DNA of 64,000 nt from assembly GCA_031292275.1 (NCBI GenBank), contig JARLHL010000027.1, forward strand, positions 1-64,000. The letters run 5' to 3'. Of this stretch, positions 17,221-20,857 are shown one piece after another. The translations under genes were made by a program, and so were the position numbers. The stretch comes from Desulfocapsaceae bacterium. GTDB lineage: Bacteria > Desulfobacterota > Desulfobulbia > Desulfobulbales > Desulfocapsaceae. The notes under the pieces were generated by a model. That model searched no databases and was not told where the DNA came from. It was given only the letters and a program-made list of their open reading frames with translations. Positions within the stretch are counted from its first letter, which is position 1, and the number at the start of each line of letters is the position of its first letter.

Positions 17221-17460
17221 ATGAAGATAACTATAGAATATTGTACGCAGTGAAACTATAAGCCCCGGGCTTCCGGTCTGGAAGCGGAGTTGGCAGAAAA
17301 ACTTGAGGCGCAGGTGACGCTGATTCCTTCCTCGGGTGGGGTCTTCGAGGTGGTGGTGAATGAGAAAAATATTTTCTCAAAGAAAAATTTAAAACGATTT
17401 CCCAATGAGGGTGAGGTTGTACAACTTATCCGGCAAATGGTAGACAGCAAACAGGATTAA
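17221..17460 (+). CDS. SelW/Rdx-family selenoprotein (in-frame TGA = selenocysteine)
   Basis: Reading from ATG 17221 to TAA 17458-17460 through one TGA (17251-17253) gives a 79-aa protein starting MKITIEYCTQ-U-NYKPRA. This is the CxxU redox motif (Cys8, Sec11) plus following NY of the SelW/Rdx thioredoxin-like family, and the length fits. The rest (ELAEKLEAQVTLIPSSGGVF, then NEGEVVQLIRQMV) matches the usual SelW layout: the GGxFEV strand and a final helix. A bacterial SECIS hairpin follows the TGA. Such proteins are thought to act in thiol redox chemistry; the exact role is unknown. Initiation at 17221 is based on the family N-terminus; the ribosome-binding site (GGTGGCGG) is poor. Its stop overlaps the stop of the convergent dtxR-like gene. 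Ordinary gene callers would miss or truncate this gene. Confidence 0.9.
17254..17291 (+). promoter_or_regulatory. Bacterial SECIS element
   Basis: Directly after the TGA, GCTTCC (17269-17274) and GGAAGC (17280-17285) form a perfect 6-bp apical stem closing a GGTCT loop (17275-17279). The loop begins 22 bases after the TGA. A GGU-containing apical loop at this distance is the SelB-binding feature of bacterial SECIS elements such as that of E. coli fdhF. Confidence 0.88.
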
Positions 17461-17963
17461 AGGTTCTCTCCGTCAGAATTGCGGCAGTGCGCCACACATT
17501 CCTCGCAATTGATTTGCGTCTTTCCCAAGGCATGGAAACTGGCAAAACCCTCAATCAGCCGGTCGCCTCCTCGGGGACAGACCTGGAGGAATTCGATGAA
17601 ATTGATCATCCGTGAGATGACTTCAGGGGGCGCTGCATGTTCAATCCGGCAGGCCCCTTCTTCTGCGGTATCGTTATCGATGGACAGAATCTCTATGAAG
17701 AAACGTTTCAGGGCGTTATGGCGGAAGATCACATCCTCGGCTGCCTTCTTTCCCTTCTCCGTCATCGTAATTGCCTCGTAGGGGGCATAATTAATCAACT
17801 CTTTATGAGAAAGAGCGCGGAGGGCTTCCGTCACCGAGGCTCGGCTGACCCCCAGTCGCATGGCTATATCCTTGCTTCTTGCTACAAGTTTTTCCTCAAC
17901 AATATGATAAATTGCCTCAATATAATCTTCCAGGCTGGCGCTGAGCTTGGCTCTTTTGATCAT
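17457..17963 (-). CDS. DtxR/MntR-family metal-dependent transcriptional regulator
   Basis: 168 aa. The N-terminal winged helix (SLEDYIEAIYHIVEE, then SKDIAMRLGVSRASVTEALRALSHKELI) is the DtxR/IdeR/MntR DNA-binding domain, followed by the metal-binding and dimerisation helix region (FFIEILSIDNDTAEEGACRIEHAAPPEVISRMI). The C-terminus carries CPRGGDR and CEECVAHC, additional cysteines seen in some anaerobe members; there is no SH3-like third domain. It would repress iron or manganese uptake genes when the metal is bound. It is convergent with the selenoprotein gene; the two stop codons share the tetranucleotide TTAA at 17457-17460. Confidence 0.9.
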   Translation of the reverse strand: MIKRAKLSASLEDYIEAIYHIVEEKLVARSKDIAMRLGVSRASVTEALRALSHKELINYAPYEAITMTEKGKKAAEDVIFRHNALKRFFIEILSIDNDTAEEGACRIEHAAPPEVISRMINFIEFLQVCPRGGDRLIEGFASFHALGKTQINCEECVAHCRNSDGENL

Positions 17964-18125: not shown

Positions 18126-19814
18126 ATGCTTTGTGAACTGAAAGTTGAAAATCTGGCCTTGATCGAGTTGCTGCAACTGCAGTTTGGTGCCTCCGGCAAC
18201 ACAGCGCAACTCATTGTTATGACAGGTGAGACAGGGGCTGGGAAGTCCATCATGCTCCGGGCGATACATCTCCTTACCGGCGCCAGGGCTTCAACCGACT
18301 GGATTCGCAACGGAGCGGACAACTGCTCTGTCGAGGCCCTGTTTGAAATTCGTCCGGAACATACGGCTCTGCGGGAAATCCTCCGGGAAAGCGATCTGGG
18401 GGATGAGACCACGGTAATCATCAGGCGTGTCCTGCAGGCAAACGGCCGCAGCCGCCTCTATGTTAATGGATCTCTGGCCACCGCCAAGATGGTGGCCGAT
18501 CTGACCGACAATCTCCTGAGCATTGCCAGCCAGCACGATCACCAGCAGCTTCTGCAGCCTTCGCTGCATCTCGATTTTCTGGATAGTGTGGGTGAGCTGG
18601 GAGAGCAAGTACGGGAATTTTCGGGGGCGTATGCTGTCTGGCAAGTCAAGAAAGGGGAATTGGACGATCTGCACAGACAAGAGAAGGACAAGGAAAAGAG
18701 AAAGGACCTCCTGCGTTTCCAGGTCGATGAGATCCGGGATGCCATGCTTGAAGTCGGGGAAGATGAGGCCCTGGAGACGGAAAAGAAGCGCCTGAAGAAT
18801 TTGGATCTGCTCATCAAGTTGAGCCATGAAAGCTCCCGGTTTCTCTCCACCGGGGTGATAGAGGGGCTGGTCAAGATCCGGAAAAATATGGAACAGGTAG
18901 CCAGTCTCGATCCGGCGGCGGGAAAGCTGGCCGAGGATCTGACCGGATATACGTATCAGGCGGAGGATCTGGTGGCCGAACTCAGGCACTATTGCAACTC
19001 CCTGGAAAGCGATCCATTGCGGCTGGATCAGGTCAGCTTCCGGATCGATCTGCTCCGGCAGCTCAAACGGAAATACGGCGAGACCATTGCGGCCATCCTG
19101 GCTTTTGCCGAAGAGGCTCAGCAAGAGCTGGAGATCCTTGAAAATCTGGATATCAAAATGGATGGTTTGGCCAAGGAGGTGGCCGGACTTGCGGCGAAAC
19201 TCATGGCGATGGCCCGGGACCTCTCTGAAAAGCGCAGACAGGCGGCCGGGAATCTGGAGAAGGCTATGGGAGAGGAGCTTGCCTCCCTGGCATTCAATCA
19301 GGCGGTTTTTCAGGTCCGGTGGCAGGAAATTGAGAACGACATCTCCCAGATCAGGGCCAGCGGTTGGGACCGGATCGAATTCTTCTTTACGGCCAACCCT
19401 GGAGAGCCGTCCCGTCCCCTGGCCAAGGTCGCTTCGGGCGGGGAGCTGTCTCGTCTGATGCTGGCCCTGAAATGTCTGCTTGCCAAGCGGGATATGGTGG
19501 AAACGGTGATCTTTGACGAAGTGGACGCCGGTATCGGCGGCGAGGCCGCAGAGGCTGTGGCCCGGAAGATCCAGGAGCTGGCCGGACACCATCAGGTCTT
19601 CTGCATCACCCATCTTCCGCAGATTGCGGCCCGGGGTACAGACCATTTCCTGGTTGTGAAGAACGTCGTCGAGGGGCGCAGTCAGTCGTCGTTTTCTCAG
19701 CTTTCTCGTGAGGAGCGGGTCGGGGAACTGGCCAGGATGCTTGCCGGGGCCTCGGTCTCGACCAAGACCTATGCCTGGGCCCAGGAACTGCTCGATAAAG
19801 GAGCAGGCCGATAA
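18126..19814 (+). CDS. recN: DNA repair ATPase RecN
   Basis: 562 aa SMC-like protein that acts early in recombinational repair of double-strand breaks. Walker A is GETGAGKS at 34-41, the ABC signature ASGGELSRLMLALK is near 436, and Walker B VIFDEVDAGIGGEAAEAV near 461. Between them lie long coiled-coil arms (about 160-350) with charged heptads. QHDHQQLL near 138 is a family landmark. The length is normal. The stop TAA overlaps the ATG of the next gene by one base. No LexA box was recognised, so SOS control is not shown. Confidence 0.96.
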   Translation: MLCELKVENLALIELLQLQFGASGNTAQLIVMTGETGAGKSIMLRAIHLLTGARASTDWIRNGADNCSVEALFEIRPEHTALREILRESDLGDETTVIIRRVLQANGRSRLYVNGSLATAKMVADLTDNLLSIASQHDHQQLLQPSLHLDFLDSVGELGEQVREFSGAYAVWQVKKGELDDLHRQEKDKEKRKDLLRFQVDEIRDAMLEVGEDEALETEKKRLKNLDLLIKLSHESSRFLSTGVIEGLVKIRKNMEQVASLDPAAGKLAEDLTGYTYQAEDLVAELRHYCNSLESDPLRLDQVSFRIDLLRQLKRKYGETIAAILAFAEEAQQELEILENLDIKMDGLAKEVAGLAAKLMAMARDLSEKRRQAAGNLEKAMGEELASLAFNQAVFQVRWQEIENDISQIRASGWDRIEFFFTANPGEPSRPLAKVASGGELSRLMLALKCLLAKRDMVETVIFDEVDAGIGGEAAEAVARKIQELAGHHQVFCITHLPQIAARGTDHFLVVKNVVEGRSQSSFSQLSREERVGELARMLAGASVSTKTYAWAQELLDKGAGR

Positions 19815-20857
19815 TGGTGTCTGCATTGGGCCTGTTTTCCGGTGGGCTGGACTCGATCCTCGCCTGCCGACTTGTGGCCGCTCAGGGGATTGCAGTGAAG
19901 GCGATTAAATTCGTCACCCCTTTTTTTGGTTACGAGGTCTTGGCTGATCCTGATCAATACCGGCAGGAGATGCTGCAAAAATACGGCATTGACGTTATTG
20001 TCAAGGATGTAAGCGTCGAGTATCTGCACCTCCTGCGCAACCCCGCCCATGGCTTTGGGAAAAATTTCAACCCCTGTATCGATTGCAAGATTTTCATGTT
20101 CAGCCGGGCCAGGGAGATGATGACGGCGCTAGGTGCCTCTTTTCTGATCACAGGCGAGGTCGTAGGCCAGCGCCCGATGTCCCAGCGCCGCGACACCTTG
20201 AATGTGATAGAACGCGACTCGGGCAGCCGTTCCATCCTGCTGCGCCCGCTCTCGGCGAAGCTCATGCGGGAGACGGAGGCGGAACTGAAAGGCCTTGTAG
20301 ACCGGGAAAGGCTGCTGGATTTCAGCGGTCGCGGCCGCTCGCGACAAATTGCGCTGGCCCGGGAGATGGGGATAACCGATTTCCCGGCGCCGGCCGGCGG
20401 CTGTATTCTTGCCGACCCCATTCTCAGCCGCAGGGTGGCCCGGATCTATACGGGAGATTTTTTTATTCCATTAGAAGATGTCAGCCCCCTTGATGTCATG
20501 CTCTTTCTGGTGGGGAGACAGTTTCGTTTGCCCGGAGGCGGATGGTTGATCGTGGGGCGCGACGAGCAGGAGAACCAGAGGCTTGCCGGCCTCTGCGGCG
20601 AATCGGACCTGCTGCTTGCGATGCAAAGTCGTCCGGGACCGACTGCGGTCCTCCGGCGTCCCGCTTCTCTCTGCGCTGATAGGTTGACCGATGACCTGCA
20701 GATTGCCGCTGCGCTGGTGGTCCGCTATGGTAAAAAAATCCCGGCCGGATCCCGGAGGAGTGAGGTGGTTATCCTCTCCGCTGCGGGGAAGAAGATCCTT
20801 ATGGTGGATCCTTTGCCCGAAAATATGCTGTCGGCTCTCCAGCAGTCGTATTCCTGA
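19814..20857 (+). CDS. PP-loop tRNA-thiolation-like protein (MnmA/ThiI-like)
   Basis: 347 aa. The N-terminal PP-loop SGGLDS (9-14) activates a substrate with ATP by adenylation. Cysteines in NPCIDCK (88 and 91) and PAGGCILADP (about 196) fit the catalytic/persulfide positions of tRNA 2-thiouridine or 4-thiouridine synthases. The C-terminal 110 residues form an additional domain, probably an RNA-binding or NFACT-R-like fold seen in Desulfobacterota members. The exact tRNA position modified is not predictable. The ATG overlaps the recN stop (TAATG), so the pair is translationally coupled, though no mechanistic link to RecN is evident. Confidence 0.78.
   Translation: MVSALGLFSGGLDSILACRLVAAQGIAVKAIKFVTPFFGYEVLADPDQYRQEMLQKYGIDVIVKDVSVEYLHLLRNPAHGFGKNFNPCIDCKIFMFSRAREMMTALGASFLITGEVVGQRPMSQRRDTLNVIERDSGSRSILLRPLSAKLMRETEAELKGLVDRERLLDFSGRGRSRQIALAREMGITDFPAPAGGCILADPILSRRVARIYTGDFFIPLEDVSPLDVMLFLVGRQFRLPGGGWLIVGRDEQENQRLAGLCGESDLLLAMQSRPGPTAVLRRPASLCADRLTDDLQIAAALVVRYGKKIPAGSRRSEVVILSAAGKKILMVDPLPENMLSALQQSYS

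Follow-up and report, generated by a model that had tools for sequence, protein, structure and literature searches.

The locus at 17221-17460 raises the question of whether an in-frame TGA ends a truncated reading frame or is read as selenocysteine (Sec) within an intact gene. It lies on the forward strand of the window, that is, the whole 64,000-nucleotide stretch of Desulfocapsaceae DNA that was analyzed. The frame opens with ATG at 17221, meets TGA as codon 11 (17251-17253), and closes with TAA at 17458-17460; read through the TGA, it gives a protein of 79 aa (MKITIEYCTQUNYKPRASGLEAELAEKLEAQVTLIPSSGGVFEVVVNEKNIFSKKNLKRFPNEGEVVQLIRQMVDSKQD). Translation thus confirmed the Cys8-xx-Sec11-Asn-Tyr motif and the run to the TAA that a first-pass annotation of this DNA had proposed. 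Under table 11, no forward-strand open reading frame of at least 60 aa was found at 17221-17460, so a naive gene caller would miss the gene, also as anticipated. An antisense frame of 64 aa occupies 17256-17450 (−), and a gene caller might annotate this frame instead of the selenoprotein. No strong Shine-Dalgarno sequence is evident directly upstream of the ATG at 17221. On the sequence evidence set out below, we estimate a probability of about 97% that 17221-17460 is a functional SelW-like selenoprotein gene (Rdx family, thioredoxin-like fold) of an anaerobe whose gene content points to a Desulfobacterota-like lineage.

Family membership was examined using profile searches in which U was entered as C. 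The read-through protein matched Pfam Rdx (PF10262) at 81.9 bits (3.8e-23; cut-off 22.6), NF041051, "SelT/SelW/SelH family (seleno)protein", at 102.8 bits (8.4e-30; cut-off 88), and TIGR02174 at 67.6 bits (8.9e-19; cut-off 34.2), with each profile covered nearly end to end. All of these scores exceed the curated cut-offs, which bears out the SelW/Rdx assignment made earlier. The CxxU motif formed by Cys8 and the predicted Sec11 sits near the N-terminus, and the TGA position aligns with Cys in structurally solved homologues such as 2fa8 (Atu0228, YCTQCNW) and 3dex (YCTQCRW). A thioredoxin-like fold is implied by homology to the solved Rdx structures. The novelty suggested by the earlier description of the gene as "hidden" was overstated, as this is a standard and long-known family of bacterial selenoproteins (PMC1794560, PMC1088965, PMC2398784) that is represented by a curated NCBI model.

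Cys forms within the family, both the solved homologues and three genes in the phylum sample described here, make a change from TGT or TGC to TGA conceivable, in which case the locus would be a decayed Cys-form rdx gene and the TGA a real stop, arising from pseudogenization or sequencing error. Conservation among relatives argues against this. A SelW-like homologue was found in 156 of 193 related genomes, and every homologue spanning the motif, among the matches listed (about 150 genomes), has an internal TGA; the sole stop-free match listed starts at residue 14, past the motif. Direct inspection of the Sec codon in 46 distinct sequences returned the same codon in all. Within a phylum sample of 297 genomes, 42 of which have Rdx genes, the TGA is present in 39 of the 42, and the remaining three carry TGT (Cys) there. 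The frame beyond the TGA and the hairpin discussed below are likewise conserved, and the Sec machinery is complete. With the TGA and the downstream frame conserved, a pseudogene or sequencing error was rejected and is, in our estimation, exceedingly improbable. The only relative among the general genome contigs searched belongs to a Neomarinimicrobiota MAG and is of the TGA form, and no relatives were found in viral contigs.

The first-pass annotation had predicted that the organism carries selA, selB, selC, and selD. All four were found in the genome to which the window belongs, which is 4.14 Mb in size and 99.98% complete and encodes a tRNA-Sec (selC) with anticodon TCA (UCA in the RNA), SelB (1.6e-110), SelA (1.5e-189), and two SelD proteins. 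One selD (L020:1483-2532; G000:C2) lacks a TGA and has Cys in its N-terminal GGCSAK motif, while the second (L021:1477-2529; G000:C64) has a near-N-terminal in-frame TGA in the corresponding region (RTCGUAAK), which predicts at least one further selenoprotein in the genome. By eye, the Cys-form selD adjoins a cysteine-desulfurase-like frame. When the entire window was scanned for further CxxU/UxxC frames containing a TGA, some 50 candidates emerged, which appear by eye to be out-of-frame noise. Two findings named in advance as grounds for abandoning a selenoprotein, the absence of selB/selC and a lack of homologues with Cys at the TGA codon, were thus not encountered. The same genes bear on the possibility that the TGA is decoded as another amino acid through a code change to Trp or Gly. 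A read-through frame alone cannot reveal the inserted residue, but adjacent genes read normally under table 11, selC with its TCA anticodon is accompanied by selA, selB, and selD, Cys is the residue aligned in homologues without the TGA, and a SECIS-type hairpin follows the TGA. A changed genetic code was rejected on the conservation and the Sec machinery, and we assign it a negligible probability.

The selenoprotein reading further predicts an RNA element after the TGA. The candidate bacterial SECIS apical stem-loop (GCTTCC / GGTCT / GGAAGC) spans 17269-17285 (+), with 17269-17274 paired with 17280-17285 around the loop GGTCT at 17275-17279. Counted from the TGA, the stem begins after 15 nt and the loop after 21 nt; the 6-bp stem and the loop had been described exactly, but the distance given, 22 bases, fits the loop and not the stem. 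Its location directly after the UGA and its small apical loop with a G agree with the published description of bacterial SECIS elements (PMC1088965). On its own, the hairpin is weak evidence. The two strands of the 64-kb window contain 2436 TGAs, of which 23% are followed by a hairpin with a 6-bp stem under permissive criteria; just 11 (0.45%) combine six Watson-Crick pairs with a 5-nt loop that has a G early on. The RNA fold suggested as a check showed that the hairpin folds in isolation, though its energy is ordinary relative to shuffles (z 0.46), a single-sequence z-score being uninformative here. No Rfam SECIS family gave a match at the gathering threshold or at E up to 10, which is unsurprising given that bacterial SECIS elements are variable. 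The only Rfam match, to manA at 8.7 bits, was dismissed as chance.

Taken across homologues, the protein match through the TGA lies far beyond chance, as do the stem's conservation and covariation. In a codon-level test of 46 distinct homologue sequences, the inner five stem pairs are intact in 40, compared with a mean of 33 when codons were exchanged between sequences encoding the same amino acid (none of 5000 shuffles reached 40) and a mean of 4 of the 46 with random synonymous codons; as the homologues are mutually related, the shuffle counts here and below should not be read as strict probabilities. A G falls within the first two loop bases in 46/46 homologues. Roughly half of the homologues do not form the outermost stem pair. 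The covariation score over 23 diverse sequences is 0.302, against 0.127 after shuffling (0/500 as high) and 0.03 to 0.16 (at most 0.163) at slid positions in the same 23 sequences. Nine sequences have CG in place of UA at the third stem pair, and four have GC in place of UA at the fourth; in homologue L057, the substitution at the fourth pair replaces both encoded amino acids (Ser by Ala, Glu by Ala) with pairing kept. These compensatory changes, together with the excess over the synonymous-codon controls, indicate that the stem is selected as RNA, a structure conserved beyond coding constraint. Of the three TGT-form Rdx genes, two show no comparable hairpin at this position, and the third, which is G+C-rich, folds anyway.

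We propose that SelB and Sec-tRNA(UCA) would bind the hairpin 15 nt past the UGA, with Sec inserted at residue 11 rather than translation terminating there. Cys8-x-x-Sec11 would then form the selenenylsulfide/selenol-thiol centre of a small redox protein, whose partner is probably a small thiol or of the thioredoxin type.

Gene order offers one mildly unusual extra, a conserved tail-to-tail neighbour of the DtxR family. This DtxR/MntR-family metal-dependent repressor gene (17457-17963, −; Pfam Fe_dep_repress and Fe_dep_repr_C) is convergent with selW, their stop codons overlapping, and recN (18126-19814, +) lies beyond it and is divergent from it. Rubrerythrin-like and heterodisulfide-reductase-like genes lie upstream of selW. 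Adjoining recN, a frame at 19814-20857 (+) encodes a ThiI-like domain fused to an NFACT-R_2 RNA-binding domain. Across the loci of 29 relatives, some of them cut by contig ends, 24 have a DtxR homologue tail to tail with selW and 25 have RecN nearby, a pattern that could mean that the Sec-form Rdx protein has a role tied to metal sensing rather than general thiol redox, as an addition to the selenoprotein reading. However, convergent genes share no promoter, the relatives all belong to one order so that inherited gene order suffices, recN is directly next without a DtxR match in three loci, and a literature search for SelW and DtxR together found no paper linking the two. We consider a metal-sensing role unlikely, and a functional link between the conserved SelW-DtxR-family pairing (with recN) and metal or oxidative-stress control a shade less likely still; if true, such a link would give bacterial SelW a role.

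The gene is not novel; it is a well-supported, ordinary further copy of a selenoprotein catalogued in related anaerobes. SelW-like was among the bacterial selenoprotein families catalogued in 2006, with carriers including Desulfotalea psychrophila and Geobacter sulfurreducens (Deltaproteobacteria), and the authors noted that Cys homologues are very scarce or absent in organisms that use Sec (PMC1794560). It is the most abundant selenoprotein family of the Sargasso Sea set (Sargasso Sea/GOS sources: PMC1088965, PMC2398784), and its bacterial function has been called unclear, although the presence of CxxU suggests a redox role (PMC1088965). Our analysis corrects an annotation, as a gene caller stopping at the TGA loses the SelW-like gene, and adds one clean SECIS example with covariation support. 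The biology repeats that of known selenoproteins of sulfate-reducing-type bacteria.

Set beside the known bacterial SelW-like proteins (PF10262, NF041051, TIGR02174), the window gene is alike in its length, its CxxU motif, a profile match along the full length, a SECIS closely following the UGA, and a Sec form that predominates over the Cys form, with no material difference other than the species. The SECIS loop of E. coli fdhF is GGUCU. The window element resembles the fdhF type in that loop and in having a stem-loop soon after the UGA, whereas its loop starts 21 nt past the UGA and many relatives have AGUUU, AGGCU, or AGUCU instead. The Cys-form Rdx proteins Atu0228 (PDB 2fa8) and SAV_2001 (PDB 3dex) are homologous to the window protein over 74 to 78 residues and differ in having CxxC, with Cys where the window protein has its predicted Sec.
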